From: Clostridia bacterium
Lineage (GTDB): Bacteria > Bacillota > Clostridia > RGIG7378
Direction of reading: 5' to 3'
Length of the DNA stretch: 41,567 nt
NCBI GenBank assembly: GCA_017559445.1
Contig: JAFYSJ010000013.1
Location: forward strand, 1-41,567
Shown: positions 6,462 to 31,320 of the stretch, piece after piece
Layout of the letters: every line of letters begins with the position of its first letter
Numbering within the stretch: position 1 is the stretch's first letter
The notes under the pieces: generated by a model
The model's input: only the letters and a program-made list of their open reading frames with translations
Database searches by the model: none
What the model was told of the DNA's origin: nothing
Translations under genes and position numbers: made by a program

Positions 6462-8204
6462 ATGTTTAGAAAGTTAGCAAAAAGTGTTAAGGGTTACTGG
6501 AAAGAAACTCTCCTGGCCCCTACCACAGTTGCCATCGAGGTAGTAATGGAGGTACTTATCCCCTACCTTATGGCCACCCTTATCGACAAGGGTATTGAAG
6601 TCGGCAACATGAACGTTATCGTTCGCATGGGACTTATCATGCTCCTGTGTTGCGCCATCTCCATGGCAGGAGGTGCTTTTGCAGGTATTTTTGCCGCTAA
6701 GGCATCTGCAGGTTTCGCTAAAAATATGCGCCGCAGATTGTTCCACGCTGTGCAGGGATTCTCCTTTACAAACATCGATAAGTTCTCCACATCCAGTTTG
6801 GTAACTAGACTTACCACTGACGTTTCCTTTGTGCAGAACTCATTCCAGATGCTTATTCGTATTGCGGTTCGTTCTCCCCTTATGATGATTTTCTCACTGA
6901 TTATGGCATCTAGAGTTAGCCCCAAGCTCTCTCTCATTTTCCTTTCAGTAGTTCCAGTCCTTGGACTTGGCTTGTTCATCATCGCAAAGAATGCCATGCC
7001 CACATTCTCTAAGGTATTTAAGACATACGACGAAATGAACAATGTTGTAGACGAGAACCTTTCTGGTATCCGCGTTGTTAAGGCATTTGTTCGTGGTGAC
7101 CATGAGAACCACAAGTTCCGCTCCGTTTCCGAAAAGCTCTATAATCTTTACGTAAAAGCTGAGCACATTTTGGCTTTCAACTCACCACTTATGTCCCTTT
7201 GCATGTATACATGTACATTGCTTGTTTCCTGGTTTGGTGCAAGGCTTATCGTAATGAGTGGCGGTACAACACTTAGCACAGGTGGTTTGACCAGTCTTTT
7301 CTCCTACACAAGCCAGATGCTCATGTCCCTTATGAGCCTTTCCATGATTTTCGTTATGCTGACTATCTCTAAGACATCTGCACAGAGAATCGTTGAGGTT
7401 TTGGATGAGACTTCCGACATCGTTAGTCCAAAAAATGCAGTAACTGAGGTTAAGGATGGTTCCATCCAGTTCAAGAATGTTAACTTCAGCTACTCTGGTT
7501 CCACAAATCTCTTGCATCTTAAGGGCGTTGACTTGGATATTAAGTCCGGCGAAACAATTGGTATCATCGGAAGTACTGGTTCCGGTAAGTCCACATTGGT
7601 ACAGATAATTCCAAGACTTTATGACGCAACAGAAGGTCAGGTTTTGGTAGGCGGTGTAGATGTTAAGGAGTACGACCTTGATACTCTCCGCAACCAGGTT
7701 GCTATGGTTTTGCAGAAGAACACACTTTTCTCCGGAACTATTAAGGATAACCTTAGATGGGGCGACCCAAATGCCACAGATGAGGAAATCGAAGAGGCTT
7801 GCAGATTGGCAAATGCACACGAGTTCGTTTGCGCAAGACCAGAGGGATATGACACATACATCGAGCAGGGCGGTACAAACGTTTCCGGTGGACAGAAACA
7901 GAGACTTTGTATTGCAAGAGCATTGCTCAAGCGTCCTAAGATCCTCATTTTGGACGACTCCACCAGCGCTGTTGACACTGCTACAGATGCTAAGATTAGA
8001 CAGTCCTTTAGAGACTACATACCAGATACAACTAAGCTGATCATCGCACAGAGAATTTCCTCCGTGCAGGATGCAGACAGAATTATCGTACTGGATGGTG
8101 GCGCTATCGTTGACATTGGCACTCATCAGGAGCTTTTGGACAGATGCCATATTTACCAAGAGGTATATTATTCTCAGTTAAAGGGAGGTGCCGACAATGA
8201 GTAG
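6462..8204 (+). CDS. ABC exporter half-transporter with degenerate ATPase site
   Basis: 580 residues with an N-terminal six-helix type IV exporter membrane domain (about residues 1-310) and a C-terminal nucleotide-binding domain. Walker A is GSTGSGKST, the signature is VSGGQKQR, and Walker B ends LILDDSTS. The catalytic Glu after Walker B is Asp, and the H-loop His is Gln (IIAQRISS). Both changes mark the degenerate half of heterodimeric exporters such as TM287/288, LmrCD and BmrCD. Its partner is the next gene, which overlaps it by eight bases. Expected role is drug or peptide/lipid export from the cytoplasmic membrane, under control of the upstream MarR protein. Confidence 0.93.
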   Translation: MFRKLAKSVKGYWKETLLAPTTVAIEVVMEVLIPYLMATLIDKGIEVGNMNVIVRMGLIMLLCCAISMAGGAFAGIFAAKASAGFAKNMRRRLFHAVQGFSFTNIDKFSTSSLVTRLTTDVSFVQNSFQMLIRIAVRSPLMMIFSLIMASRVSPKLSLIFLSVVPVLGLGLFIIAKNAMPTFSKVFKTYDEMNNVVDENLSGIRVVKAFVRGDHENHKFRSVSEKLYNLYVKAEHILAFNSPLMSLCMYTCTLLVSWFGARLIVMSGGTTLSTGGLTSLFSYTSQMLMSLMSLSMIFVMLTISKTSAQRIVEVLDETSDIVSPKNAVTEVKDGSIQFKNVNFSYSGSTNLLHLKGVDLDIKSGETIGIIGSTGSGKSTLVQIIPRLYDATEGQVLVGGVDVKEYDLDTLRNQVAMVLQKNTLFSGTIKDNLRWGDPNATDEEIEEACRLANAHEFVCARPEGYDTYIEQGGTNVSGGQKQRLCIARALLKRPKILILDDSTSAVDTATDAKIRQSFRDYIPDTTKLIIAQRISSVQDADRIIVLDGGAIVDIGTHQELLDRCHIYQEVYYSQLKGGADNE

Positions 8205-10149
8205 AATGAGACCCGGCCCAGGTGGCCCTGGAGGCGGACCTGGTAGAAGAGGACCTGGCGTTATTCCTCCTGGAACTAAGATTGATGGCAAGACAGTTAA
8301 GAGATTGTTGGCCTACGTTGGCCGCAACAAGGTACTGTTGGCTATTGTAGTTATTTGTATCATCCTTAGCTCTGCAGCATCTGTTGCAGGCGGCTTGTTT
8401 ACACAGGTTTTGGTAGATGACTACATCTCCCCCATGTTACTCACATATGTACCTGGAGCAGAGGCAGCTGGATTCTTTAACGGCTTACTCAAGGCTATTT
8501 TGTTCATGGCCATGATCTACGCAGTTACTGTTTCCATGACATTCACATACAACTGGCTCATGGTTAGAGTTGCTCACAACACTTTGAGGCAGATTCGTAA
8601 TGACATGTTCGAAAAGATGCAGACTTTGCCCGTTCGTTACTTCGATGCCAACCCACGTGGTGACATTATGAGCCGTTTCACCAACGACGCTGACACATTG
8701 AGACAGATGATCACACAGAGTTTGCCCTCTGCAGTATCCTCTATCATCACCGTTGTGGCTGTGTTCTTTGGAATGTTGAGCATTAATATTCCTTTGACTG
8801 CTTTCGTTCTGTTGTTCGTTCTTGCTACAACAACTTTGACAAAGCCAATTGCCAAGAACAGTGCAAAATACTTTGTTAAGCATCAGGGAGCACTTGGTGC
8901 AGTTAACGGAAACATTGAAGAAATCATCAACGGACAGAAGGTTGTTAAGGTTTTCTGTCACGAGGATGCTGCTAAGGAAGAGTTCGACAAGTTAAACGAC
9001 GAATTGGAGCACAACGCATATAGTGCAAATAAGTTTGCAAACATTTTCTTCCCCATCATGGGTAACTTCGGCAACGTTTTGTACGTAATGGTTGCTTTCT
9101 TGGGTGGATTCATGGCTATTAAGTGGAACGCTGTTTCCTTGGGTGCTGTAGTATCCTTCTTGGGACTTTCTAGAAGCTTCGCAATGCCTATTAACCACTT
9201 GTCCCAGCAGATTAGCTCCGTTGTTATGGCTTTGGCTGGTGCATCTCGTATCTTTGAGCTCATGGATCAGGAGCCTGAGTCAGACGAGGGTTACGTTACT
9301 TTGGTTAATGTGACTTACGACGAGGATGGAAACATTCATGAGACTGATACAAAGACTGGTCACTGGGCATGGAGACATCCTCACCAGTCCACAGGCGAAG
9401 TTACTTACACACCATTGGCTGGTGACATCCGCATGCACGAAGTAGACTTTGGCTATGTGCCAGAAAAGCAGGTTCTCTACGATATTTCCTTGTATGCTGA
9501 GCCTGGCCAGAAGGTTGCTTTCGTAGGTGCTACAGGTGCTGGTAAGACAACAATCACAAACTTGCTCAACCGCTTCTACGATATCGCAGACGGCAAGGTA
9601 AGGTACGATGGCATTAACATCAACAAAATTAAAAAGGACGACCTCAGAAAGTCCTTAGGTATGGTTTTACAGGATGTTAACTTGTTCACAGGTACTGTAA
9701 TGGACAACATTCGTTACGGTAGATTGGATGCAACAGATGAGGAGTGTATTGAAGCCGCAAAGCTTGCACACGCACATGACTTTATCGAATTGTTGCCCGA
9801 GGGTTACAACACCATGCTCACCAGCAACGGTAACAACTTGTCCCAGGGTCAGAGACAGCTCCTGTCCATTGCTAGAGTTGCTGTAGCAGATCCACCAGTT
9901 ATGATTTTGGACGAGGCTACTTCCTCCATCGACACACGTACTGAGGCAATTGTACAGCGTGGTATGGATAACTTGATGAAGGGACGTACAGTATTTGTAA
10001 TTGCACACCGCCTGTCCACAGTACAGAACTCCGATGTAATTATGGTATTGGATCAGGGTCACATCATCGAGCGTGGTTCCCACGATAGCTTGATTGCCGA
10101 AAAGGGTAACTACTATAAGTTGTATACTGGAGCATTTGAATTAGAGTAA
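8197..10149 (+). CDS. ABC exporter half-transporter, catalytic partner
   Basis: 650 residues. A Gly/Pro/Arg-rich cytosolic N-terminus (RPGPGGPGGGPGRRGPG) precedes the six-helix exporter domain and a nucleotide-binding domain. Walker A is GATGAGKTT, Walker B is MILDEATS with the catalytic Glu, and the H-loop is IAHRLST, so this subunit carries the hydrolytic residues. Its signature is LSQGQ rather than LSGGQ, which fits pairing with the degenerate site of the first subunit. The ATG at 8197 is chosen because GGGAGG lies eight bases upstream; the in-frame GTG at 8188 overlaps that site. A strong terminator follows. Confidence 0.93.
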   Translation: MSRMRPGPGGPGGGPGRRGPGVIPPGTKIDGKTVKRLLAYVGRNKVLLAIVVICIILSSAASVAGGLFTQVLVDDYISPMLLTYVPGAEAAGFFNGLLKAILFMAMIYAVTVSMTFTYNWLMVRVAHNTLRQIRNDMFEKMQTLPVRYFDANPRGDIMSRFTNDADTLRQMITQSLPSAVSSIITVVAVFFGMLSINIPLTAFVLLFVLATTTLTKPIAKNSAKYFVKHQGALGAVNGNIEEIINGQKVVKVFCHEDAAKEEFDKLNDELEHNAYSANKFANIFFPIMGNFGNVLYVMVAFLGGFMAIKWNAVSLGAVVSFLGLSRSFAMPINHLSQQISSVVMALAGASRIFELMDQEPESDEGYVTLVNVTYDEDGNIHETDTKTGHWAWRHPHQSTGEVTYTPLAGDIRMHEVDFGYVPEKQVLYDISLYAEPGQKVAFVGATGAGKTTITNLLNRFYDIADGKVRYDGININKIKKDDLRKSLGMVLQDVNLFTGTVMDNIRYGRLDATDEECIEAAKLAHAHDFIELLPEGYNTMLTSNGNNLSQGQRQLLSIARVAVADPPVMILDEATSSIDTRTEAIVQRGMDNLMKGRTVFVIAHRLSTVQNSDVIMVLDQGHIIERGSHDSLIAEKGNYYKLYTGAFELE

Positions 10150-10150
10150 G

Positions 10151-10178
10151 AAAAAGGTCGCGGAAGCGGCCTTTTTTT
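10151..10178 (+). terminator. Intrinsic terminator of the ABC exporter operon
   Basis: Stem AAAGGTCGC / GCGGCCTTT with a GGAA loop (one G-T pair), followed by a run of seven T, beginning two bases after the stop codon. The end of the T-run merges into the first copy of the 36-bp repeat. Confidence 0.88.
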
Positions 10179-10289
10179 AGTGTTTATTCATTACTTTTGA
10201 ACGACTAAAAGATGCTGCGCATCTAGTGTTTGGTGTTTAGTGTTGAGTGTTTAGTGTTGATTCATTACTTTTGAACGACCAAAAGTAAT
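10176..10289. repeat. Paired 36-bp direct repeat and long perfect stem-loop
   Basis: Bases 10176-10211 and 10250-10285 are direct repeats with two mismatches; both contain ATTCATTACTTTTGAACGA. The second copy continues into a perfect 10-bp inverted repeat, ATTACTTTTG (10264-10273) and CAAAAGTAAT (10280-10289), with loop AACGAC. Between the copies lie GATGC-TGC-GCATC (10211-10223) and the phrase CTAGTGTTTGGTGTTTAGTG, which has an exact inverted copy at 3829-3848. This block seems to be the left part of the hairpin-array element. No gene is seen. Confidence 0.75.
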
Positions 10290-10325
10290 CAAAAGTCGCC
10301 CGCTACTTCCGAAGCGCGGGAGGCA

Positions 10326-10690
10326 CGGTTCACTAGCAACGCAGTTGCGGCCTACTAACGAGCTTTGCTCGTGGCTCACTAGGACCGAAGGTCCGGTTCA
10401 CTAGCACCTGCGGTGCGGTTACTAGCAAGCTCTGCTTGCGGCTCACTAGCCGAAGGCGGCCTACTAACGAGCTCTGCTCGTGGCCTACTAGCCAAAGGCG
10501 GCTCACTAGCAACGCAGTTGCGATCACTAGCAAGCTTTGCTTGCGCAGCGGTTCACTAGCAACGCAGTTGCGGCCTACTAACGAGCTTTGCTCGTGGCTC
10601 ACTAGGACCGAAGGTCCGGTTCACTAGCACCTGCGGTGCGGTTACTAGCAAGCTTTGCTTGCGCAGCGGTTCACTAACGAGCTCTATAAT
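10326..10690. repeat. Array of about 15 distinct mini-hairpins with a conserved CACTA/TACTA spacer
   Basis: Every 20-24 bp there is a perfect inverted repeat with a three-base loop, preceded by CACTA or TACTA and usually followed by GG plus Y. Stems include GCAAC/GTTGC, ACGAGC/GCTCGT, GGACC/GGTCC, GCACC/GGTGC, GCAAGC/GCTTGC and GCC/GGC. Loops are GCA, TTT, TCT, GAA, TGC or AAA. The start coordinates of the 15 palindromes are 10336, 10358, 10382, 10404, 10425, 10449, 10467, 10491, 10509, 10530, 10559, 10581, 10605, 10627 and 10648. A sixteenth unit at 10677 is cut after its left arm. The stem sequence varies but complementarity is kept, so the structure is what is conserved. It is not a CRISPR array: there are no constant long repeats with unique spacers. 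Confidence 0.85.
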
Positions 10691-10781
10691 GCGAACTGCA
10701 TATTTTCTAATTTTATGCTATAATTCGACTATATCATTGGATGTCGGTCCATTTTTATCACAAACATTAAGAAAGGAACAA

Positions 10782-12440
10782 ATGAAGATCACCGACACAT
10801 CTTTATTAATTACTTTTATGATCTGTTCTAATTGCGGAAACAATTATTCCGAAGAAACAAATTCTTGCCCACAGTGTGGAACAGCAGTAGCAGTTGAGGA
10901 GACATCTGCTCCAGTTAACGAAGCAGCTCCTGATAAGAAGTCCAAGAAGCTTGTTTTCATCATTGCAGCTGTTGTTTTTGCCCTTATTCTTGGCATTATC
11001 GTTACAGTATGCGTTGCTGCATCTTCTGACAAGGGCTTTATCCTTTACACAACAGAGGATGAACTCTTTATTGCACACGGCAAGAGCTATAAGCCAGTTC
11101 TCGCTTTCGATGATAAGTACGAGTTGACAAACCTCTATGGTATTAATAGCGATGGTTCTAAGTTCTTGGTTGAGGACGAGGATGGCGCACTCTACTTCTT
11201 GGATACAAATAGCAAGAAGGCTCCAGTTAAGCTTTCCAGTGACTACTCCATGGCAATTCCCAGCGAGGACTTCAAGGTTATTACATACGTAAAGGACAAC
11301 GCTCTTTACCAGTGTAATGCTAAGGGTAACCCAGTTAAGGGCGAGAAGAAGATTCAGAGCAAGGTTAAGGAAATCAAGGTTATTTCCAGAGACAGCAACA
11401 TTATTTACTACTCCAACATGGACGGTGACCTTTACGTTAAAGTTGGCCGCAAGGACGCTCAGCTCGTTTGCCTCGTAGATGACTACAAGACAATCTACGG
11501 CACAACAGATGACTTTAAGACTATTTACTACGTAACAGACGATGGCGAGCTTTATGCTAAGACTATCGGCAAGGACGCTGTTAAGATCACAGAGGATGTA
11601 GTTTCTAAGTACGGTTTCAGCTCCCCTGATTCCTACTATACATCTGTTACAGATGGTACTTTCTACGTTATTACATGTGAAGCAGTTTCTTGCGATGAAA
11701 CAATTGGCGACTATCCACCAGTAAAGTCCTCTCTTTGCTACATTAACGGTACTAAGTGCACAGTAGTTTCTGAGGATCTTGCAATTGGAAACTCTTCCAG
11801 CTTCTACCTTTCTGAGGATGGTGATTCTGGCGTATTGGCATTCACAAGCTTCGATTCCGAAGAGTACGAAGTTTACATGGTAGTTGGCAACAAGTGTACA
11901 CTTTGGGACGAGGATATCACATCCATTTACGATGTATCTGACGATGGTAAGTATGTTTACTACACAGACCACATTGACGAGAACAACGTTGGTGATTTGT
12001 ACCGTGCTAAGATTTCTGCTAAGCCTGCAAAGGGCAACTTGGTAGATGAAGATGTTCGCAACGTAAGAATTTTGGCAAACGGCAAGGCTCTCTACTTCAA
12101 GGACGTTGACGATGATAACCACGGCGACCTTTACTTGGATGGCAAGTTCATTGCAGAGAACGTATACACAAGCAAGGTTACATACCACAAAGATTCTGAG
12201 AAGTTTGTTTTCTTCACAGATTACAACACTGAGAAGACACGCGGAACTCTCTGCCAGTACTCCGGCAAGGTTAAGACAATTGCTGAGGATGTATACACAG
12301 CATCTTATACAACAGATGGTCTTGTTTGCTACATGACAGATTATAAGGACGGCGAGGGCACTCTCCATGTTTCCAACAAGAAGAAGGCAATTGCTGAAGA
12401 AGTTACATATTTCTTGACTTCTTTGTCCTTGGAGCGCTAA
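10782..12440 (+). CDS. Zinc-ribbon membrane protein with propeller-like repeats
   Basis: 552 residues. A cytosolic N-terminal zinc ribbon (CSNCG...CPQCG) and an acidic linker lead to one transmembrane helix (VFIIAAVVFALILGIIVTV). A long outside region follows, rich in Asp, Tyr and Lys, with repeated strands of the form DGxLYxK/xIxYYxxDG. That pattern resembles DUF5050 or six- to eight-bladed beta-propeller repeats. I chose the ATG at 10782, which has AAGGAAC upstream; initiation at 10818, directly before the zinc ribbon, is possible. Codon use is strongly biased (GTT, AAG, ACA), suggesting high expression. Function unknown; ligand sensing or wall binding would be guesses. It is monocistronic, with a terminator after it and the hairpin array before it. 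Confidence 0.75.
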   Translation: MKITDTSLLITFMICSNCGNNYSEETNSCPQCGTAVAVEETSAPVNEAAPDKKSKKLVFIIAAVVFALILGIIVTVCVAASSDKGFILYTTEDELFIAHGKSYKPVLAFDDKYELTNLYGINSDGSKFLVEDEDGALYFLDTNSKKAPVKLSSDYSMAIPSEDFKVITYVKDNALYQCNAKGNPVKGEKKIQSKVKEIKVISRDSNIIYYSNMDGDLYVKVGRKDAQLVCLVDDYKTIYGTTDDFKTIYYVTDDGELYAKTIGKDAVKITEDVVSKYGFSSPDSYYTSVTDGTFYVITCEAVSCDETIGDYPPVKSSLCYINGTKCTVVSEDLAIGNSSSFYLSEDGDSGVLAFTSFDSEEYEVYMVVGNKCTLWDEDITSIYDVSDDGKYVYYTDHIDENNVGDLYRAKISAKPAKGNLVDEDVRNVRILANGKALYFKDVDDDNHGDLYLDGKFIAENVYTSKVTYHKDSEKFVFFTDYNTEKTRGTLCQYSGKVKTIAEDVYTASYTTDGLVCYMTDYKDGEGTLHVSNKKKAIAEEVTYFLTSLSLER

Positions 12441-20454: not shown

Positions 20455-23400
20455 CTATCTTAAGAATGATCTGCGATTTTTAGAACCAAGTATACAAATG
20501 CTTACGCCGCTGGCCAACATAGCCATCATCCATATCCACATTCCATTACCTGTTCCTGTCTGTTCGGGTGTTACCTCTGGAAGTTCGGGAACTTCAGGTT
20601 CCTCAGGAGCCTCATAGTAATTAATAAATATTACTGCATCAGCCTCGTTTTCACCCTCACTGTAAATATACTCCATTGAGAGCGTTCCGTCTAGCATATC
20701 TACAACATTTACTACAACTTTAAACTCTCTTTCATCATACTTTACAGTTTCATCGTTTCCTGCAACTTCCACTACCTTATAGGTATAAACGCCTTCCTCA
20801 GATACTGCAATAGAATCGAAAGGTACTACACCGTCTGCCAAGTTTGTAGATGTTGCAATCAGGTTTCCTTCACTGTCATAAAGGTTAAATGTGAACTCTC
20901 CCTCTACTAAATCTCGTCCTACCAATTCCTTAATGGCAGAAATCTCAATTTCTGTAGCCTCAACCTTATATGTATTTGTGAACTTAATCTGGCCTCCTTC
21001 TGTTACATCCACATACTGCACAACTTCTGTCAAAAGGCCATCCACCATTTCCTTTGAAAGTGTTTCCTTAACAAGCTTAGTGCTTTGAACCTTAAGCTCA
21101 CCGTCTGTTGCCATTACAACCTCAACTCTCAAGTGGTATGCTGCCATATCGTAAGTGATGCACTTTTCATTTCCAACAATTTCCGTTGCCTTGAAGTGAT
21201 ATACTCCTTCTTCTGGAAGCAAAATCTTATCAAAGGAAACGACACCATTTTCGTCGTTTGCAACTACACTGCCAACCTGCTGACCTGTTACCACATTAAG
21301 GAGCTTGAACTGGAATTCTCCCTTGACCAAAGGTCTACCCACAAGTTCCTTAAGCACATCGAATTCTGTGGAAACATCGTAAGTAATCGCTGTTGGAACA
21401 AAGCCATTCTTAAACACAATGCCACTAGCTACCATGTCGTTCTTAACATATGTAACCTTGGCGCTAAGCTTACCCTGGGAGTCATCTGTTACTGTAACAG
21501 TTACAATGTACTCTGCCTTATCATAGTCATATCTAGCATCTGTTCCTGCCAGCTCAACAATTCTATACACATAAGTACCAGGACGGTCATAGGTGGTGCT
21601 GCCAAAGAGGATCAGTCCCTTAGCGTCGTTTGTCACAACTGCATTTTCGGGCATTGGAGCACCACTTGTAACCGCGGAAATCTGGAACTGGAACTCTCCG
21701 TCCTGCATTTCCTTACCTGTCAAAATTTTGTTTCCCTCTAACGTTACAGTTACATCTGTTGGATCATAAACGTTATGGAAAACAATATCTTCTACAACAC
21801 TTGCGCCATTGGTAATCGCTACCTTTGCTGTAACTGTTTCGCCATTATCTGTAACGATAACTGTCACCTGGTACACTGTTGTGTCGTATGTAAATCCACC
21901 AATCTTGTTGTCCTGGGACTCTGTTACAAGATAAACATATGTGTTTCCTTTGTGCTGGTCACCAAACTCAATTGGAGCAAAGGCGAAATTGCCTTCTGCA
22001 TCGTTTGTTGCAACTGTACCTACTGGCATTGGAGCGCCCTCTGTTACAGCAGTCAAAACAAACTGGAACTCATTTGCATTAAGAACTCTATTATTTGTAA
22101 TTGTCTTTTCGCCAGAGATCACAACATAGTCAGACTCAGATGGTACGTACTGGTTAACAAATACTGGATTTGTTGCACCTTGTGGCAAGCCAGAGATTGT
22201 CATGTCTGCACTGATTGTGCCATCTCCATTGTCCTTTACAACTACATCCACTCTGTATACCTGTTGAGAGTACAGAATGTTATTAATCTTCTGTCCTGCA
22301 TTAATCTCAGCCAGGTAGTATGTGTAAGTTGTTCCAGCCATTGTAGCTCTATCTGCTGCATATGTAAGGGAAATAGTTGTCTTACCCTGAGCGTTTGTAA
22401 GACCAGAACGTACAATCTCAACCTCTTCTGAGCTATTAAGTGGATCTTGATCATACAAAGCGAACTGGTATCCGTTAAGACTATGGCCACCATTTATTTG
22501 CTTGTCGATATTAATTACTACTGTAGCCTGTCCCTCTGGAGCATAACCATTGGTGAAAGTAGCTTCTACCTGCCATTGGCCAGTAACAGTTGTATTAATC
22601 TCGTTTCTCACTGACAGGATCTCTAAATCGCCATCCATGTCAGCATCGGCAACTACCACGACAAATCTACGCTCAGCCAAGTCGTATGTAACGCCACCCT
22701 GATTACCTACCTGCTCTGTTACTCTATAGTAATATGTGCCTGCCTCGACAAATATTTCATTTGCCAATGTGAACAAAGCTGTCTTAACAGTGTCTGTGTC
22801 GGAAATTGTCTTTGTAGCAACAACAGTACCTACTGCACCCTGATTTGCTCCTGCCAATCTCTCTAAAACAAAGGTGTACTGCTCTCCTGGCACCCACTCT
22901 GTGCGGTTACCTGTGATTTCCTTAGAAACCAGCACCTTCATATCTGTTCCTGAAACAGCAACTGGGCTGTACTTATTAACCACAACAGCTCTATGACCCA
23001 TATCTACATCCACAATACCTGTCATGCTGCTGTCTTCTTCCACAAACTCAAAACCTGCTGGTACATTTGTCTCAACCACAGTGAATTGTGTCTTTTCAGG
23101 AATACCGCGAACAACTACAGAGTGTCCCGCTGACAAAGCTACTGTAAACTTTCCATCCTGACCAACCTGAATTTCTCCAAGAGAAGACTGGAATGTGCCA
23201 CTGACTGCCTTGCCCTTGCTATCCTTAAGGGTAATTTCCATTGTGAACTTAACAGATTCAGCCACGTTCACCACGTTGCCCTGGTTATCCACAACCTGCT
23301 TTGTAATAACCAAGTCGCCTTCACCCAATGCTGTATTAACAAACTCCACGTCGTCGATAAGGAACTGAGCCACTGTGCCAGTTGCCACATTACCTGTGTA

Positions 23401-26253
23401 CTGCCCATTTACATGAACGGACTTAACCTTGTAGTCTCCATTGTCAGAAATTTCTTCCACCACGTACTCTGTGCCTGCAGGAACGCCTGTGATCCACAAT
23501 GTCTGGTCCTTCTTAAGTTCTACTTCTGCATATCCATTGGCAAATACCAAGCTACTTGGCTGTCCTGATGGAGTTTTTCCAAGGTCAGTAATCCAAGCTT
23601 CATATGCGCCGGAAAGATTTGCCTCGATTGCGAACTTAAATGTATCTGCTGTTCCCTCTTCGTAAACGTCAACTGTCTTGCTGATTTTGATACCTGTCTC
23701 AGGGATTACGGACAACTTACCGTTGTTGCCAAGGTTCATTCTCACGTAAACCATGTTATTGCTCTCTGTAATGTATGGGTGGAAAACCATGCGAGCAGAA
23801 TCTGATGTATTAACAGCCTTTTGCTCATCGTACATCTGAAGTTCGCGAGCTGGTGTGCCTGCTGGAACAACCCATGCGCCAGTTACCATATTGTCTAATG
23901 TTACAAAATCTGCCTGCCAGCCATTTTGCTTTGCAACCTCAATGGACTTTGGAGACATCTTCTCGTAGAAAAACTGAGGTATAGTCTTGTCCTGCTGGAA
24001 AACATATCTACGGTGATAGTACTCACCATTTACGTCCAAAGACTCATTCTCGCCTACCAAAACATACTGGTTATCTACCTTTTTGAACACGGCAGAATCA
24101 AATGTGAAATAGAATCTCTCATTCTCTATATTAGGAGTGAATTCTGCTGTGGCTGTAATGTGCTGATCGTGACTTGCGGCAGAAATATCGTAGAAGTTGT
24201 TCCAGAACTCTCTTGTATGACCATCTGCTGCCACGTTCTCTTGGTCTGTTATATCTACAATATTAAACTCATTAAGATCAGCTCTAAGGCCTGTCTCATA
24301 TACTAGGCGAATTGGAGAAATATTGTCTGCATCCTCTACTGTCAACTTTACATTAGTTGCTGTATCTACGTTATTGCCATCCAATGCCACTTTGTATGTG
24401 ATCATTGGAACAAGAGCTGCTGGAAGCTTCCATGAAACAGTCTGCATTCCTGTGGCCAAATCTGTGTAAACCTCAATAGACATGTACATCATGTCACTGT
24501 TTTTGATGCTGCCAGATGTTTCGCCCAAAAGGCCATAGGACTTCACCTGATATGCTGCGCCATTTGGAGCGGGATCATTGGAGTTTTCGTCCCAAAAGCC
24601 CAAGAATGTACCATCGGCCTTAGCATACCAGCCAATATAGTTGGACCACTCTGTCCTAGATGTATAACTAAGCTGACCTGCATTAACTGCCTTTGCAACA
24701 AGGGCCTGAGCCTCTGCTGTATTGGTAATTCCAAGTCTTTCTTTAACGGATCTAATAAATTCATTACCCAATACTGTGGGATTATTAATTGTTCCAAGAC
24801 CTTCCTCTGTTGTGTCATACAACTTAGATGCCATCATGTGACCATCAAACAAGGTATTGCCAAGCAAAACTCCATTGATCTGCTTAACTTCCATGTATGC
24901 ACCAAGAGTATCTGTAAACTCTACGTATCCTGCAAAGTCTGGATTTCCACCCTCAAGGTGAGTTGGGTAGTAGCGAGACTGAAGAATAATCTCCTCTACG
25001 ATATCGTCGAATGCGGTTGTAAGTCCATCATCGGTTGCGGAAAAATACTCGTCAACATAAGACTTATTTGTTACGTAGGAACTCTTAGAAATAGAAACTT
25101 CTGTTGTAGATCCTCTAGAATTTATAACAGAAACCATCATCTTACCTGTAGTAAGCTGAGAATATGTTGCCCACAAACTATCTGTAAGTGTGGAACCATC
25201 TGGGTTGAGAACACTTCTTGCAATTTGATTAGCTGTAGATGTGCCAGAAACATTAAATCCAAGTGTGTAGAACAAGGACTTAGCCTGTCCTCCCTCAGCA
25301 TAGTGGTTCTGGATTCTATTAATAACATAGGATGCTGTAAGCTGAACCAAAAAGCCCTGGCCTGTTGTCATATTTCTGTCGATACCATTACCAACATTTG
25401 CTGCGCCTACGTTGTCATAGTTGCTAGTACCAATTGTAGGTGCACCATCTGACATGAGGACCAAAATAGGCATACGTGCCTCGTCCTTCTGCCAGTTGTC
25501 GCCAGTAACTACTGTATCCATCTCAAGGAACATTTCCATGGCTTCCCAAAGTCCTGCTTGAATATATGTGCAGTTGTCCACCTTCATGGAGTTATCCAAC
25601 CTAGGATCTGCACTCTGGCCCTCAATACGCACAGAATCCTTAACTGCAATTGTAGAGCTACTTCCAGACTTCTTAATAACCAAGAACTCGCCATTTGCCT
25701 CTGTGTATCTACCAATTGGCAAAACTCTAACTACACTGGAATCATATGCAGATGTGCCAGAAAGTTGCTGAGAAGAATAAAAAACAACGCCAACTCTGTT
25801 ATTGTTATTAATCTGCTGAAGCTTCTTAATAGCAGCGTTTGCCGCCTTAACAAGCTGGTCCTCCTCACCCTGCATGGAATTAGAAAGGTCTAAAACCAAA
25901 ACTGTGTCTGTAGGCAATGTGGAATATCCTACGATTTCCTTTGTTGCAGCCAATGCAGACAAAACTGTCAAAAAGTTCTTAGAATCGTCCAGCATCGTAA
26001 TGCCTGTGCCTGCAAAAGCATCTTCATTAGAAAATACAGACTTGTCAGTCCAGACGCCTCCTACATTTGCTGTTATCAAATTGTTCAAATCAAAATACTT
26101 AGTCCAACCATTCATTGTGTTGGCATCCACAACCTTGCTGTAATTAGAAGCGCTGGCTCCATAAGCAGTTGCAGAAAAAATAGGGATGCTAGTTAGCACC
26201 ATGGCCATAGCCAAAAGCATGCTTAATGCCTTGTGTGTAATAGTCTTTCTCAT
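20455..26253 (-). CDS. Giant vWA and Spy0128/FctA-repeat surface protein
   Basis: 1,932 residues. A signal peptide (KALSMLLAMAMVLTSIPIFSATAYGA) is followed by a von Willebrand A domain with MIDAS motif DLSNS near residue 122 and a later LMSDGAP, suited to metal-dependent ligand binding. After a linker come two DUF7601/CnaB-like domains and about six Spy0128/FctA-type modules. These show a Lys on the first strand, a Glu in the middle (TESQ, VELAG, TEIVG, VEVAG) and Asn on the last strand (FHNVY, FKNGF, FTNTY, FINYY), the Lys-Asn isopeptide pattern. The tail has a Pro/Glu spacer, PEQTG, a hydrophobic helix and KNRR. The start at 26253 follows GGAGG. It has its own promoter and terminator and probably acts as a cell-wall adhesin. 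Confidence 0.9.
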   Translation of the reverse strand: MRKTITHKALSMLLAMAMVLTSIPIFSATAYGASASNYSKVVDANTMNGWTKYFDLNNLITANVGGVWTDKSVFSNEDAFAGTGITMLDDSKNFLTVLSALAATKEIVGYSTLPTDTVLVLDLSNSMQGEEDQLVKAANAAIKKLQQINNNNRVGVVFYSSQQLSGTSAYDSSVVRVLPIGRYTEANGEFLVIKKSGSSSTIAVKDSVRIEGQSADPRLDNSMKVDNCTYIQAGLWEAMEMFLEMDTVVTGDNWQKDEARMPILVLMSDGAPTIGTSNYDNVGAANVGNGIDRNMTTGQGFLVQLTASYVINRIQNHYAEGGQAKSLFYTLGFNVSGTSTANQIARSVLNPDGSTLTDSLWATYSQLTTGKMMVSVINSRGSTTEVSISKSSYVTNKSYVDEYFSATDDGLTTAFDDIVEEIILQSRYYPTHLEGGNPDFAGYVEFTDTLGAYMEVKQINGVLLGNTLFDGHMMASKLYDTTEEGLGTINNPTVLGNEFIRSVKERLGITNTAEAQALVAKAVNAGQLSYTSRTEWSNYIGWYAKADGTFLGFWDENSNDPAPNGAAYQVKSYGLLGETSGSIKNSDMMYMSIEVYTDLATGMQTVSWKLPAALVPMITYKVALDGNNVDTATNVKLTVEDADNISPIRLVYETGLRADLNEFNIVDITDQENVAADGHTREFWNNFYDISAASHDQHITATAEFTPNIENERFYFTFDSAVFKKVDNQYVLVGENESLDVNGEYYHRRYVFQQDKTIPQFFYEKMSPKSIEVAKQNGWQADFVTLDNMVTGAWVVPAGTPARELQMYDEQKAVNTSDSARMVFHPYITESNNMVYVRMNLGNNGKLSVIPETGIKISKTVDVYEEGTADTFKFAIEANLSGAYEAWITDLGKTPSGQPSSLVFANGYAEVELKKDQTLWITGVPAGTEYVVEEISDNGDYKVKSVHVNGQYTGNVATGTVAQFLIDDVEFVNTALGEGDLVITKQVVDNQGNVVNVAESVKFTMEITLKDSKGKAVSGTFQSSLGEIQVGQDGKFTVALSAGHSVVVRGIPEKTQFTVVETNVPAGFEFVEEDSSMTGIVDVDMGHRAVVVNKYSPVAVSGTDMKVLVSKEITGNRTEWVPGEQYTFVLERLAGANQGAVGTVVATKTISDTDTVKTALFTLANEIFVEAGTYYYRVTEQVGNQGGVTYDLAERRFVVVVADADMDGDLEILSVRNEINTTVTGQWQVEATFTNGYAPEGQATVVINIDKQINGGHSLNGYQFALYDQDPLNSSEEVEIVRSGLTNAQGKTTISLTYAADRATMAGTTYTYYLAEINAGQKINNILYSQQVYRVDVVVKDNGDGTISADMTISGLPQGATNPVFVNQYVPSESDYVVISGEKTITNNRVLNANEFQFVLTAVTEGAPMPVGTVATNDAEGNFAFAPIEFGDQHKGNTYVYLVTESQDNKIGGFTYDTTVYQVTVIVTDNGETVTAKVAITNGASVVEDIVFHNVYDPTDVTVTLEGNKILTGKEMQDGEFQFQISAVTSGAPMPENAVVTNDAKGLILFGSTTYDRPGTYVYRIVELAGTDARYDYDKAEYIVTVTVTDDSQGKLSAKVTYVKNDMVASGIVFKNGFVPTAITYDVSTEFDVLKELVGRPLVKGEFQFKLLNVVTGQQVGSVVANDENGVVSFDKILLPEEGVYHFKATEIVGNEKCITYDMAAYHLRVEVVMATDGELKVQSTKLVKETLSKEMVDGLLTEVVQYVDVTEGGQIKFTNTYKVEATEIEISAIKELVGRDLVEGEFTFNLYDSEGNLIATSTNLADGVVPFDSIAVSEEGVYTYKVVEVAGNDETVKYDEREFKVVVNVVDMLDGTLSMEYIYSEGENEADAVIFINYYEAPEEPEVPELPEVTPEQTGTGNGMWIWMMAMLASGVSICILGSKNRRSFLR

Positions 26254-26333
26254 CTGATCCTCCATAGATGCGATAGATTTTTGTGTTTATTTGTCTTAAA
26301 GAGTACTTTTTTGGTCTTATTTCCTCCAAGCAC

Positions 26334-26362
26334 ATAATACAGCACCATTTTGGTATTGTAAA
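26334..26362 (-). promoter_or_regulatory. Promoter of the giant surface-protein gene
   Basis: Minus-strand TTTACA (26357-26362) and TATTAT (26334-26339) are exactly 17 bp apart, about 80 bp before the start codon. This separates the gene transcriptionally from the pilus operon, which ends at the terminator at 26412-26440. Confidence 0.72.
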
Positions 26363-26411
26363 TAGAAACATTACCGATTTGGTTGTGTTTTAGAAAAATA
26401 TTTTTGCAATC

Positions 26412-26440
26412 AAAAATGGCCCCTAATTGAGGCCATTTCT
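26412..26440 (-). terminator. Terminator at the end of the pilus/flavin-reductase operon
   Basis: Perfect stem AAATGGCC / GGCCATTT with a nine-base loop, followed by TTTTTG on the minus strand, about 20 bp after the flavin reductase stop. Confidence 0.85.
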
Positions 26441-26460
26441 AAAATCATATTGCGTTATTT

Positions 26461-27018
26461 TTACATGAGCTTTTTGCCATCTGCAAAGGCATTACCCACC
26501 TTTTCACCCATGGTCACATAGCTACTACCCGATGCATCGAAGCAAATAGGATTTACCTTAGATCTATCGATGTTACCATCTGCATCTAGCACGGACTCAT
26601 CTGCACTAATGTTTACGATATCTCCAACGCAAATGCCATCCTCGTTAAATTTAACCAGTTTGCACTCTACTGTTACTGGAAGCTCATCAATAATTGGGGC
26701 GTCTACGTGCTGACTCTTGGTTGCGTGGAAACCTGCCTTGGCGAACTTGTCAGGCTCCTTATTGCCAGAAACCATGCCCACATAATCACACGCAACAACA
26801 GTGTCCTTTGTACCAAAGCTTACTGTGAAGTAGCCGCTCCTCTTAATATTCTTAGTTGTCTTGTGGCCATGAGACAAGCAAATCATAACCTGATTTGTGT
26901 CATAGATGCCACCCCAAGCTGCATTCATGGCATTAGGTGTGCCGTCCTCGTTATATGTGCCAACAATAAGAACTGGCATTGGGTACAACCAGTTTTTAAC
27001 TCCAAAATCTTTACGCAT
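26461..27018 (-). CDS. Flavin reductase family protein
   Basis: 185 residues with the FMN-binding split-barrel fold. The N-terminus reads KNWLYPMPVLIVGTYNEDGTPNAMNAAWGG, followed by ICLSHGHKTTKNIKRSGYFTVSF and a CDYVGMVSG loop; all are typical of this family. The start is placed at 27018, after AGGGAC; the GTG at 27030 would cover that site. It follows the sortase-like gene by about 20 bp and is the last gene before the terminator, so it is probably read through from the pilus operon. No functional connection with pili is known. It is unlike the 307-residue flavoprotein at 13438-14361. Confidence 0.88.
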   Translation of the reverse strand: MRKDFGVKNWLYPMPVLIVGTYNEDGTPNAMNAAWGGIYDTNQVMICLSHGHKTTKNIKRSGYFTVSFGTKDTVVACDYVGMVSGNKEPDKFAKAGFHATKSQHVDAPIIDELPVTVECKLVKFNEDGICVGDIVNISADESVLDADGNIDRSKVNPICFDASGSSYVTMGEKVGNAFADGKKLM

Positions 27019-27038
27019 TTCGTCCCTCACTAATTAAT

Positions 27039-27626
27039 TTATTTCGCCACGTCACATGTGATGATTACATATTCAAATGCATATATATTTTTAATAAACA
27101 AAGTCAATGCACCATCTACTCTCTGTAATGCTTCCTGATCTGCGTGCTTTGAATAACGAATATCCTTTACCTCAAGTCCAAAGCGATTTCCTTCCATATC
27201 TGTAAAGTAAACCATGTCTTCCACAGATATATTGCGATAAAAATCGTACTGCCCTTTTTGATTTGTTACACCAATTTGCAATGTGCCATCATAAATGCTA
27301 CCACTGAAACAACTTGGGAATCTAGATATATTGCCGTACTCTGCACCAACTGGCAATGCCGACTGAAACTTAGGCATCTCCAATATACCTATAAAATCTC
27401 TACCGTCTATGGACAGAATAGACATAGCATTGTCTCTTCGCTCCTCAGGAACTGCATTTTGAATCTCTGGCAACAAAGTCTTTATGTTATCCACGTAAGA
27501 AACCGACTGTTTCTCCCATATCCTAAGACATCCTTGCCATATCGCCATTGCAACTCCTGCAATTGCCAACAATATGATTCCAGTTACAATACATATCTTC
27601 CATATGTTTTTTCTTTGCTTGCTCAT
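27039..27626 (-). CDS. Sortase-like protein lacking catalytic His and Arg
   Basis: 195 residues. An N-terminal membrane anchor (ICIVTGIILLAIAGVAMAIW) is followed by a sortase-like barrel with IGILEMPKFQSALPV, then MVYFTDMEGNRFGLEVKDI and the end YVIITCDVAK. The ITC matches the TLxTC catalytic-Cys motif. Where active sortases have the catalytic His (AxHN or AHR), this protein has IGVTNQKG. It also ends four residues after the Cys, so the catalytic Arg, about eight residues later in the neighbouring class C enzyme, is missing. No frameshift that restores it is visible. The start at 27626 overlaps the stop of the minor pilin gene (ATGA). Likely a pilus-associated pseudoenzyme or an altered-mechanism sortase. 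Confidence 0.75.
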   Translation of the reverse strand: MSKQRKNIWKICIVTGIILLAIAGVAMAIWQGCLRIWEKQSVSYVDNIKTLLPEIQNAVPEERRDNAMSILSIDGRDFIGILEMPKFQSALPVGAEYGNISRFPSCFSGSIYDGTLQIGVTNQKGQYDFYRNISVEDMVYFTDMEGNRFGLEVKDIRYSKHADQEALQRVDGALTLFIKNIYAFEYVIITCDVAK

Positions 27627-28582
27627 GAGTTCTTTCTCTTTCTGCCCATAATACCCATGAGGACTAAAACTATTCCGGATACATAAAGCAGTATTATATA
27701 CAACCAAATGTTAGCTGTATCTCCTGTTTTAGGCGGTTCAACTGGTGGCTTATCTGCAACAAGAGTATTCGTAAGCACAAAGGATGTGCCTTTCTCCTCA
27801 ATTGTAGCTGTGTAACCTTCTGGAACATTTCGCTCTACCACAATCCATTTTGCACCGTCATCTGGGACTATCCAGCTATAGGACCAGTTCTTTTCTGCGG
27901 AAAGTGTGATCTTATCATAGCTTACACCGTCTCGAAAAACCTCAACCTCAACTGAATTAGGGCGCTTGCCCTGATCTGTTTCTCCCTTCCAAAGCTTAAT
28001 CACCTTAAGTTCTAGCTCTTCATCTGGGTCAACAGGTGGCAAAACCTCAGCCTTAGCTGTTACCTCAACTTCATAATGCCAATATCCTTCTTCATCAATG
28101 TCTGGCAATGCTACAAGGGCTGATGCAAACACGCAAGTCACATCCTCTTGGACAGCTTGGCCTGCAATTGCCAAATAAAGTCCTGGTTCCAAACCTTCAT
28201 ATGTAACCTGTCCCCTTTGGTTAGTGGCCATAACTGCTTCTGGCTCAATATTATTTGCAACAATATTAGCCTCCAACGTTGAGCGAATTACATTCCACTC
28301 ACCATTTGTCTGAACTCCATTCAGTACAAGGCCAGAGACTCTAAAATTCTCTGTAAGAGAATATTGGGCGTCCGATGACACAGTAGCAATCTTGTACAGT
28401 GCAACTGTCACATCCTCGAACGGAACACCATCATAACCATAGTTGATTGTAATGGTGCAAGTCCTATCTAGAGAAATTGGTCCCCTGGCATCGGCTGTAG
28501 ATGCTCCAAAGGCATGGCAAGGTCCAAAACACAGGCAAAGGCAGATCAAAAATGCAATTATACCCCATCTTCTTCTAGCCAT
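27623..28582 (-). CDS. Minor (basal or accessory) pilin with CnaB domain and PPKTG signal
   Basis: 319 residues. A signal peptide (WGIIAFLICLCLCFGPCHAFGA) is followed by a pilin-like domain and then a CnaB-type domain (LKVIKLWKGE...GYTATIEEKG...FVLTNTL), where a Lys-Asn isopeptide bond is expected. The C-terminus is a sorting signal: PPKTG in place of LPxTG, a hydrophobic helix and a positively charged end. It overlaps the class C sortase gene by 25 bases and the sortase-like gene by four, so all three are translationally coupled. Small size and late position fit a basal pilin that anchors the fibre, but this is inferred. Confidence 0.85.
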   Translation of the reverse strand: MARRRWGIIAFLICLCLCFGPCHAFGASTADARGPISLDRTCTITINYGYDGVPFEDVTVALYKIATVSSDAQYSLTENFRVSGLVLNGVQTNGEWNVIRSTLEANIVANNIEPEAVMATNQRGQVTYEGLEPGLYLAIAGQAVQEDVTCVFASALVALPDIDEEGYWHYEVEVTAKAEVLPPVDPDEELELKVIKLWKGETDQGKRPNSVEVEVFRDGVSYDKITLSAEKNWSYSWIVPDDGAKWIVVERNVPEGYTATIEEKGTSFVLTNTLVADKPPVEPPKTGDTANIWLYIILLYVSGIVLVLMGIMGRKRKNS

Positions 28583-29421
28583 TCTTCTTCCTCCTTTGAG
28601 ATTAAAGGCTTTGTTCCCTTATCTCTGTACTTCACCATCAAAACAATCAACAAACCTAATAAAATAGGAGCTGCAACAATTGGTGTTGCAACCAGTGAGT
28701 CAATCTTATAAGCATCAGATGTAACATACAAGGCAGGGGCTGCATTTTCTACGCGACTACCCCTTACCAACAATCTGTGGGAGTTAATTCCATAAGGTGT
28801 ACATGTTAACAATGTGCAGAAATCCTCGCCCTCAACAATACGAATATCACTACTATCTTCTGGTCTAACTACCTTGATCTGATCCACCTGATATGTGAAT
28901 GTGTGATTCAAAATAGTTATCTGGAAGGTGTCTCCCACCTCCAGCTTATCCAGCTCTGTAAAAAGCTTAGCATGTGGCAAACCTCTATGGGCAGAAAGCA
29001 CGCTATGAGTGCTTTCTCCACCTACAGGCAAGGAACTACCTTCTAAATGTCCGCATGCAATATTCAATACTTCTACGGAAACTCCATGGTACAAGGGAAT
29101 TTCAACTCCAAGCTTTGGGATGGAGATGTATCCCATGATGCCGTTTCCACTTATGTTAAGAATATCGTTATATCCCTTAACCTTTTCATAATCGTATAAG
29201 GGATTCGTTAGCTCAGCCAATGCCTGGTTATATGCCTCAGCTTCTTGAAAATACTCATCATAATCCTCAGGCTTTAGAGAATTAAGAATTTCCTGATAAT
29301 TTTCTACTGCATGAGTCTGAGTTTTGGTGTTCCAATACTGGCTCACCGATGGATAAAGCAGCCCACAGACGCCTATGAATAACATTAGAACCAAAATAAT
29401 TCCTATTTTGTCTTTTTTCAT
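28558..29421 (-). CDS. Class C sortase (pilin polymerase)
   Basis: 287 residues. An N-terminal membrane helix, a lid-like region (LTNPLYDYEKVKGYNDIL) and a sortase barrel are followed by a second C-terminal helix, the two-anchor layout of class C pilin sortases. The catalytic motifs are all present: LSAHRGL with His, LLTCTPYGINSHRLLVRG with Cys and Arg. In family members a DPF/W lid blocks the active site; here the corresponding loop is NPLY. The enzyme links LPxTG pilins to a pilin lysine outside the membrane. It lies between the major and minor pilin genes. Confidence 0.94.
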   Translation of the reverse strand: MKKDKIGIILVLMLFIGVCGLLYPSVSQYWNTKTQTHAVENYQEILNSLKPEDYDEYFQEAEAYNQALAELTNPLYDYEKVKGYNDILNISGNGIMGYISIPKLGVEIPLYHGVSVEVLNIACGHLEGSSLPVGGESTHSVLSAHRGLPHAKLFTELDKLEVGDTFQITILNHTFTYQVDQIKVVRPEDSSDIRIVEGEDFCTLLTCTPYGINSHRLLVRGSRVENAAPALYVTSDAYKIDSLVATPIVAAPILLGLLIVLMVKYRDKGTKPLISKEEEEWLEEDGV

Positions 29422-29454
29422 AACCGTCTCTCCACTGCTTGATCTTAAAATAGT

Positions 29455-29481
29455 GGCGGATGGCGAATATCACCATCCGCC
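29455..29481 (-). terminator. Hairpin between the major pilin and sortase genes
   Basis: Perfect nine-bp stem GGCGGATGG / CCATCCGCC with a nine-base loop, about 40 bp after the pilin stop. On the minus strand it is followed by ACTATTTTAAG, a weak T-tract. It may be a partial terminator or an RNA-stability hairpin that keeps pilin mRNA in excess of sortase mRNA. Confidence 0.65.
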
Positions 29482-29520
29482 GCCTCTTTCAAACTAATTT
29501 TTATTTACATTTATGGAAGA

Positions 29521-31320
29521 TTACATTTCGTAAATGGACATCTTCTTGCGTGTAATCAAGAATACTGCTGCTACAATAATAAGTGCTGCGCCACCACCGA
29601 TAAGCAATGCTGTACCTGTTGCACCTGTCTCAGGAAGAACTGTACCTGTACGGTTAATAATATCCTTTTCAATAATACCTGTATATTCACCAGTAATTTC
29701 ATCAGTTTGGCCCATACCCATAAGACCACCATCCAACAAAGTAATCTTATGTACCTTGTTTTCAGTTTCCGCATGCTCAGCGGAAATAGAGAAGTAAATA
29801 TCTGCCAACTGGCTATAACCCTGAGGCTTTACATCCTCAACCAACTTATAATCTCCATCATCAAGGCCCTTCCATACAAACTCTGTTATTGGGTTAATAT
29901 CTGTAGAAGCAATAGTTCCAAGTTTTACATAATCATAGCTACCGCCACCATTTCCATTTTGCACAAAAACCTTCTTCCAAAGTGTGAATGTTGCGCCTGC
30001 CAAAGGATGATTATGAGAATCAATTTTGTTAATGACTAACTCGTATGTATAAACTACAGCCATATCTGGAGCCAAAATTCCCTTGCTACATGTCGGTACA
30101 TCTGGATCTGATGTAACAAATGGATTAGCATCGTATGGATCATTAGAGTACTCAAGAGTTGCACTAACTATATTGCCTTCTGAGCCAATAGTTGCGCCGT
30201 CATATGCAGCTGTTTCAGGATTATCAGCATTTAATACTGCCTCAAAGTAAACAACAAAGGCTGTATCCTTAGTTACGCCTTCAATATCAAAAACGTTTTC
30301 ACAAGTTACTGTAAATTCACCAGTTGTATTAATTGTAAACTTAGTTATGTCTGCGTTTACGAAGTCGTTCATGTCTGTGTCTACATCTGCCTTATGCTTT
30401 GTCTCATACATGTAAACTACAACACTATCTGGGGCCAAAGTAAGACCTGGTGACAATTCAATATCAAACTTAATTCCATATGCATTTGGTTTGTAATACT
30501 CCAAATTGCTTGGAAGGGTTGCTGTTACCTTAAATGGAACTGTATCTTCTGCGTCATGGTCTGCAGTATCAAGCCAAGGCTTGTCAATAATTGTATTGCT
30601 TTCGCTATCCTCAATATCCTTTACCTTAACCTCAATTGTAGGAATGCTTGTCTTAACATTGATTGTAATGTCACCTTCTGCAACTGTATCTACCAATACG
30701 AGTGAGTTAACAGCGCCTTCTCCTCCATTATATGTAGTAACATCAACAATCATCCAATAACCAGGAACAACTGTAAAAACATTATCCTCACCAACATTCT
30801 CCTGTACTGGATTTATCTTCTTATCAGCAGCTGCTGTACTGTTATATTCCAAAATAGCACGATAAATACGATCTGCTACCTGACGCATTGTATTGTACTC
30901 ACCACCAACATCACCTGTCTGATATGCCAAATATGCAATAATCTGCTCGTCAGTAACTAACTCTGGATGGCCATCTGGCTTAGTTGTGTTTGGCCAAAGT
31001 TCGTTTCTTCCATTAGCAAGTGTCTCTACCTGCAAAATAGCCTTAATCTCATCATAATGCTCTAAATTAATAGTGTAATCGTAGTTATAGCAAGTATCCT
31101 TATGGTCCTCACCTTCATGATCTACGTGATGTGTACCTGTCTTTAAGGATACACTTACATCCAAAAGCTTATATGCTACATAAGTTCCACCTTCGCCACC
31201 TGTAATTGTAATATCATATGTCTCTGGTGTTGTTGCTCCCTGCTGATTTTCTGCAAATGCTACTGTTGCCATGGAAAAAACCATAGCCAAAACCAATAAA
31301 ATAGAAATTATCTTTTTCAT
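29521..31320 (-). CDS. Major (backbone) pilin, LPETG-anchored
   Basis: 599 residues with an N-terminal signal peptide (MKKIISILLVLAMVFSMATVAFA). Middle domains fit the fimbrial isopeptide-forming D2 type, and there is a C-terminal CnaB-type domain with the E-box-like YKLVEDVKPQGY. The sorting signal is LPETG, then a hydrophobic helix and RKK. The E-box Glu normally catalyses an internal Lys-Asn bond that stabilises the subunit. The pilin-motif Lys used for polymerisation cannot be fixed by eye; a candidate lies in the VKVKDIEDSESNTIIDKPW region. Polymerised by the class C sortase just downstream. Confidence 0.9.
   Translation of the reverse strand: MKKIISILLVLAMVFSMATVAFAENQQGATTPETYDITITGGEGGTYVAYKLLDVSVSLKTGTHHVDHEGEDHKDTCYNYDYTINLEHYDEIKAILQVETLANGRNELWPNTTKPDGHPELVTDEQIIAYLAYQTGDVGGEYNTMRQVADRIYRAILEYNSTAAADKKINPVQENVGEDNVFTVVPGYWMIVDVTTYNGGEGAVNSLVLVDTVAEGDITINVKTSIPTIEVKVKDIEDSESNTIIDKPWLDTADHDAEDTVPFKVTATLPSNLEYYKPNAYGIKFDIELSPGLTLAPDSVVVYMYETKHKADVDTDMNDFVNADITKFTINTTGEFTVTCENVFDIEGVTKDTAFVVYFEAVLNADNPETAAYDGATIGSEGNIVSATLEYSNDPYDANPFVTSDPDVPTCSKGILAPDMAVVYTYELVINKIDSHNHPLAGATFTLWKKVFVQNGNGGGSYDYVKLGTIASTDINPITEFVWKGLDDGDYKLVEDVKPQGYSQLADIYFSISAEHAETENKVHKITLLDGGLMGMGQTDEITGEYTGIIEKDIINRTGTVLPETGATGTALLIGGGAALIIVAAVFLITRKKMSIYEM

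Follow-up and report, generated by a model that had tools for sequence, protein, structure and literature searches.

The DNA analysed here, a 41,567-nt stretch referred to as the window, belongs to an uncultured gut bacterium, a Clostridia MAG (G000) of 1.68 Mb in 40 contigs, which is 96% complete. An intrinsic-terminator-like hairpin with a T run (10155-10180, plus strand) lies 3' of an ABC transporter gene (8188-10149). Downstream of this hairpin, between the ABC transporter gene and the gene of a zinc-ribbon protein, an array of mini-hairpins was found (10332-10676, plus strand). It comprises exactly 15 perfect triloop hairpins with six stem sequences, followed by a truncated 16th hairpin at 10678, which agrees with a sequence-only reading that had counted about 15 perfect three-base-loop palindromes and six or more stems. 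On the plus strand, the hairpins are of class A (GCAAC-GCA-GTTGC at 10336-10348, 10509-10521 and 10559-10571), class D (ACGAGC-TTT-GCTCGT at 10358-10372 and 10581-10595, and with the loop TCT at 10467-10481), class F (GGACC-GAA-GGTCC at 10382-10394 and 10605-10617), class B (GCACC-TGC-GGTGC at 10404-10416 and 10627-10639), class E (GCAAGC-TCT-GCTTGC at 10425-10439 and 10530-10544, and with the loop TTT at 10648-10662) and class C (GCC-GAA-GGC at 10449-10457 and its variant GCC-AAA-GGC at 10491-10499). The stems GCAAC, ACGAGC and GCAAGC are each present three times, and GGACC, GCACC and GCC twice. The five-unit block A-D-F-B-E (10336-10439, plus strand) returns at 10559-10662, which makes this portion a segmental duplication.

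The pentamer CACTA or TACTA (YACTA) stands directly 5' of all 15 hairpins, as had been proposed for the spacer; the linker as a whole reads G(G/A)Y(Y)ACTA rather than starting with GG throughout. Successive hairpin starts are separated by 18-29 bp, a wider range than the 20-24 bp initially given. With a stem of at least 5 bp and a 3-nt loop, 13 non-overlapping hairpins are found in the array, compared with a mean of 0.56 and a maximum of 5 in 2000 dinucleotide shuffles of the array stretch, and 54 hairpins of this type are found across the remaining 41.2 kb of the window. The folding of the whole 365-nt stretch is only modestly more stable than that of shuffles (z of -2.4 and -2.8 for the two strands as DNA, -2.0 for the plus strand as RNA), because the signal resides in local hairpins and not in one large fold. 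A large cooperative fold was rejected on the basis of these modest values on both strands.

Several other repeats are present beside the array. A solitary mini-hairpin (CACTA plus GATGC-GCA-GCATC; 10210-10224, minus strand) adjoins a heptamer repeat, CACTAAA/CACCAAA, with the same CACTA core as the array (10224-10258, minus strand; period 7 in TRF), and CACTAAA heptamers also occur at L034 (3215-3323) and L044. Another dispersed repeat family, ATTACTTTTGAACGACCAAAAGTAATCAAAAG, forms an inverted repeat with extensions to about 150 bp and accompanies several arrays (window 10176-10211 and 10250-10300; L013, L015, L024, L031, L039, L040, L043 and L044). In 257 kb of the source genome, the sequence CACTAAACACTA was counted 11 times, whereas 212 kb of the genome of its sister species (G001, a sheep-colon MAG; locus L057) contained no copy. 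Antisense to the zinc-ribbon protein gene, a 520-aa open frame (10806-12368, minus strand) is probably a shadow ORF. Further away, pilus-like surface protein genes (20455-31320) encode a protein of 1936 aa that has six FctA isopeptide domains and a SpaA/Gram-positive pilin protein of 599 aa with an LPXTG anchor.

The array belongs to a genome-wide family and is not a fixed single-copy locus, a point on which the sequence-only reading is supported. Within its own genome, it gives 66 BLAST matches, and the stretches around these matches were read as chains of ACTA-separated units, which yields about 45 merged arrays with about 500 units in arrays and 10.4 kb in total. Each unit consists of YACTA, a mini-hairpin and G(R)Y(Y), and a typical array has n+1 YACTA tags around its n hairpins. 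The arrays measure 66-434 bp and comprise up to 21 units. The hairpin vocabulary amounts to about 12 types across the arrays, including GC-GNA-GC, GCC-GAA-GGC, GGC-GNA-GCC, GCAAC-GNA-GTTGC, GCACC-AAC-GGTGC, GGACC-GAA-GGTCC, ACGAGC-TTT-GCTCGT, GCAAGC-YYY-GCTTGC, GCGC-GNNA-GCGC, GCGAGT-GAA-ACGAGC, GCGAAT-GCA-ATGAGC and rarer ones.

Nearly all of the arrays lie wholly between predicted ORFs, with few overlaps that involve short or doubtful ORFs. They are irregularly spaced along the chromosome, have no common partner gene and are often found 3' of terminators or stop codons; at L018 and L016, read directly from the sequence, the array end abuts the gene and provides its stop codon. Two arrays are located at contig ends (C9 and C39), where repeats are expected to break the assembly. 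Relative to the local gene majority, the orientation is opposite in a ratio of 30:15 (P = 0.036). Several arrays stand behind a terminator, and for one of these terminators a third copy has no array. Near-identical terminator hairpins were also seen at different loci (three places in L029; L010/L023; L014/L043/L044), with an array behind them or not, and these may represent a dispersed terminator-like repeat.

Perfect stems are present in 436 of the 498 parsed units, a count that overstates independent events because the units descend from few ancestors; several of the non-perfect ones are parser failures or truncated units. Of the pair cells, 95-100% are paired, with changes on both sides, which bears out the idea that structure and not sequence is preserved. 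For the 5-bp and 6-bp classes, the number of paired cells, the number of double-changed cells and the covariation score all exceed those of 500/500 shuffles and of every slid control. This covariation supports pairing and is not a count of events, the alignment rows being few and related.

The loops follow rules that differ between the strands. Triloops read on the YACTA strand are GNA in 295/454 cases and TNC, which is GNA when the opposite strand is read, in 16/454. The tetraloops are GNNA in 21 of 38 cases, with GNRA only once. Double mismatches recur only as tandem G·A: the 29 units with exactly two mismatches reduce in essence to two sequences, each of which has G·A next to A·G within a YGAR context, an arrangement that forms sheared tandem G·A pairs. 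Sheared G·A pairs and triloops are made by RNA too. We infer that the folding molecule is DNA rather than RNA since GNA triloops dominate, GNRA loops are nearly absent and the arrays have no fixed gene partner. The loop and mismatch preferences of the YACTA strand are the rules of single-stranded DNA mini-hairpins and apply to one strand only. Single-stranded DNA, which had been put forward as the arena of the process, is the likely one. GNA loops are described as extraordinarily stable in DNA in a statement of PMC6479982 that cites Yoshizawa 1997, and the same is reported for the DNA mini-hairpin d(GCGAAGC), which has a GNA loop (PMC6582339).

A known RNA was rejected, as the window array gives no Rfam match. 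The plan of the arrays is nevertheless close to that of Gut-1 (RF01706), which Weinberg et al. described in 2010 as probably a noncoding RNA (PMC2864571) and whose Rfam consensus has three mini-hairpins with a GUGAAAU spacer (ATTTCAC on the other strand). Both comprise at least three different mini-hairpins with a constant spacer, occur in gut bacteria in many copies per genome and have GNA/GNNA loops and tandem G·A on one strand only. They differ in the spacer (ATTTCAC versus YACTA), and the YACTA arrays extend further (up to 21 units) and draw on a vocabulary common to about 45 arrays. The Gut-1 covariance model gave no match at E <= 1 in window 10130-10800 (gathering score 50 bits), so the array resembles Gut-1 and is not a member by model. 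Elsewhere in the source genome, a Gut-1-like array at one locus (C40:36623-36693; L178, L219), with an ATTTCA spacer and CACTAA repeats beside it, reaches 42.5 bits, below the gathering score.

Strong matches to RF01706 were obtained in two other genomes, 36 in G391 (to which L107 belongs) and 13 in G073. On the ATTTCA strand of these arrays, GNA accounts for 14 of 25 triloops and TNC for 0, the tetraloops are GNNA, and tandem G·A is found in 8 of 37 distinct units, compared with 0 on the opposite strand. The catalogue entry for Gut-1 describes an RNA read from the other strand, not from the one with this grammar of loops and G·A pairs. In G391 and G073 (L180-L217), the arrays often come two per locus on opposite strands (e.g., L182, L183, L184, L186, L188 and L200).

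A third set of arrays, with the spacer TATATCATC and the loops GCA, GTA, GAA and GTCA, is present in G001, which has no YACTA arrays, and also occurs in other Clostridia (L107 and L150). These arrays (L174, L175, L107, L150) share with the YACTA arrays a constant spacer with diverse mini-hairpins, and several of them are likewise directly 3' of a terminator. They differ by their spacer, by having 3-4 units each and by their few copies (two pattern matches in G001). The two G001 arrays match the Gut-1 model weakly (24-28 bits).

The arrays might be regarded as functional RNA, transcribed and structured as was read for Gut-1, acting as stabilisers in 3' UTRs or acting as terminators. The publication of Gut-1, which has the same plan, as a likely noncoding RNA (PMC2864571), the frequent location behind terminators or stop codons and the covariation of the stems speak for such a role. 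It is, however, unlikely for a family that is lineage-specific, of high copy number, without a fixed gene partner or orientation and of variable array length (66 to 434 bp). If the arrays have any preferred orientation, it is against that of most nearby genes (30:15, P = 0.036), several arrays lie beyond a terminator and hence outside the expected transcript, the loops are GNA and not GNRA, and in Gut-1 itself the grammar is found on the complement of the modelled strand.

The order of the units is not random. Identical stems stand side by side only 9 times, 3 of them being parser artefacts, where 57.9 are expected (minimum 42 in 1000 within-array shuffles). Identical stems are enriched at lag 4 (65 versus 37 expected) and neutral at lags 2 and 3, and higher-order repeats of hairpin classes such as MDGAMDGA and MBMBMB occur. 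The simplest account of the avoidance of identical neighbours is that slippage rapidly deletes one member of any adjacent identical pair; alternatively, the hairpins may be selected to fold independently. Different arrays have vocabulary in common more than order. Hairpin-class blocks of at least four are common to different arrays in 34 cases, versus 9.0 in shuffles, and since this excess is only moderate, movement of single units and of blocks is not separable. Exact blocks of at least three units are common to two arrays in only two cases, and block copying from array to array was rejected as the main route for this reason.

Simple slippage of single units was rejected because of the avoidance of identical neighbours. 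Slipped-strand copying, one of the two routes suggested by the sequence-only reading, is for the same reason insufficient if acting alone, the arrays being moreover dispersed. An ordinary minisatellite, that is, tandem repeats expanded by slippage from chance palindromes without any folding constraint, would explain the tandem layout, the higher-order repeats MDGAMDGA and MBMBMB and the enrichment at lag 4. Identical neighbours are, however, avoided and not favoured, the arrays are dispersed to about 45 unlinked loci, and perfect stems, compensatory changes and loop rules on one strand set them apart. This reading, already disfavoured, is very improbable.

The family is restricted to the lineage of the source genome. 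An exact-pattern search for the single unit matches 160 times in this genome and not once in the 390 other Clostridia genomes, the sister species G001 included. At four loci with conserved flanking genes (the window locus, L016, L018 and L040), the array is absent in G001: L016 measures 446 bp in the source genome versus 183 bp in G001, and L018 314 bp versus 35 bp. The array is thus not fixed, single-copy and unstructured in relatives, the outcome that the sequence-only reading had named as a refutation. In this comparison, which covers one MAG per species, the four orthologous sites differ by the whole array, and no insertion of a single unit is seen there. An origin from a plasmid or phage was rejected: PLSDB and INPHARED gave no match, a second viral pattern has no matches, and the two matches in IMG/VR (L138 and L139) are of a single unit, are not accompanied by further hairpins with YACTA and are ascribed to chance.

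This distribution also bears on whether the arrays are DNA elements selected by the host, for example, sites for nucleoid or single-strand-binding proteins, or replication or repair signals of the chromosome. A high copy number, intergenic sites and a structural constraint would fit such a function, and the avoidance of identical neighbours would keep each hairpin folding on its own. The absence from the sister species, the irregular spacing and the lack of a common partner gene make it improbable.

Spread by an HUH Y1 transposase was considered as well. Such an enzyme would read the tag and hairpin on single-stranded DNA and insert units 3' of YACTA, as in REP/RAYT systems and comparable with the tetranucleotide of IS200/IS605. 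The fixed tag 5' of every hairpin, the n hairpins with n+1 YACTA tags in typical arrays, the strand-specific hairpin rules and the dispersed, intergenic location would be expected of it. However, PF01797 (Y1, TnpA/RAYT) is absent from the four array-bearing genomes searched (G000, which is 96% complete, G001, G073 and G391), while the same search matches in 5 of 14 control genomes, which leaves the REP/RAYT reading, and the TnpA/RAYT transposase suggested beforehand, unsupported. Random insertion would further predict about 58 identical neighbours instead of 9, and the YACTA tag differs from the GTAG or CGTC carried by REP palindromes (PMC3733652). We consider this mechanism decidedly unlikely. 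No mobilising enzyme and no excision product were found for the YACTA arrays.

Comparison with known repeats indicates both shared and distinct features. Like REP, REPIN and BIME elements, the YACTA arrays consist of palindromes that lie between genes, bear an unpaired tag and a short loop, change their stems with complementarity retained and are present in high copy number (PMC3733652), and so fit the description of REPs with regard to copy number, extragenic location and complementary stem changes. REP, REPIN and BIME elements are, however, usually inverted dimers of one family, whereas the YACTA arrays are in direct orientation and mix about 12 hairpins. The ends of IS200/IS605 elements resemble YACTA units by a fixed tetranucleotide beside a single-strand hairpin, but the YACTA units have no distinct left and right ends and the transposase of that family is absent from the genome. 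The layout is the inverse of that of CRISPR, in which identical repeats alternate with unique spacers: here, the 5-nt linker is constant and the hairpins recur. The repeats SDR4, SDR5 and SDR6 of Nostoc, associated with Elhai et al. 2008, a study cited in PMC2884548, are reportedly units of 21-27 nt with a secondary structure maintained by compensatory change, often within heptamer repeats and mostly as solitary insertions. The window array has in common with them a secondary structure with compensatory change and the heptamer context, as CACTAAA heptamers lie next to it, but these cyanobacterial repeats are mostly solitary and the YACTA arrays are long and head-to-tail. We know of no GNA or tandem G·A rule in the Nostoc repeats.

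The YACTA arrays are dispersed in a lineage-specific manner, constrained in structure, strand-specific in their rules and avoid identical neighbours. We favour, with a probability of roughly 0.55, the interpretation that the window array belongs to a lineage-specific, intergenic and probably selfish repeat with about 45 copies, which is copied or corrected as a folded single strand. The operative form would be the folded YACTA strand, exposed as single-stranded DNA during replication or repair and then recognised or copied. When the template is switched between the arms, one arm could be rewritten to match the other, resulting in different but perfect stems. That template switching can make and repair perfect hairpin stems has been argued for RNA hairpins (PMC8794818). 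Slippage and recombination at the constant spacer would duplicate blocks of units, with identical neighbours being quickly lost. Spread to new sites would require a trans-acting activity or template switching at the fork, other than a Y1/RAYT transposase, and the arrays would settle directly after stop codons and terminators, where they might do little harm.

More tentatively, the Gut-1, TATATCATC and YACTA arrays may form one class of single-stranded DNA mini-hairpin repeats in Clostridia, with lineage-own spacers and a non-HUH mode of spread. In that case, which we regard as possible rather than probable, the RF01706 entry would describe, as an RNA and on the wrong strand, what is a DNA element. 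Gut-1, unexplained since 2010, thereby gains another candidate identity.

With about 500 units in a single genome, the YACTA arrays represent chromosomal repeats that retain stable single-strand folding while their stems are freely swapped. Both the strand-specific grammar of GNA loops and tandem G·A and the rule of no two identical neighbours are directly testable. The family points to a way in which very small elements may spread without a known transposase.
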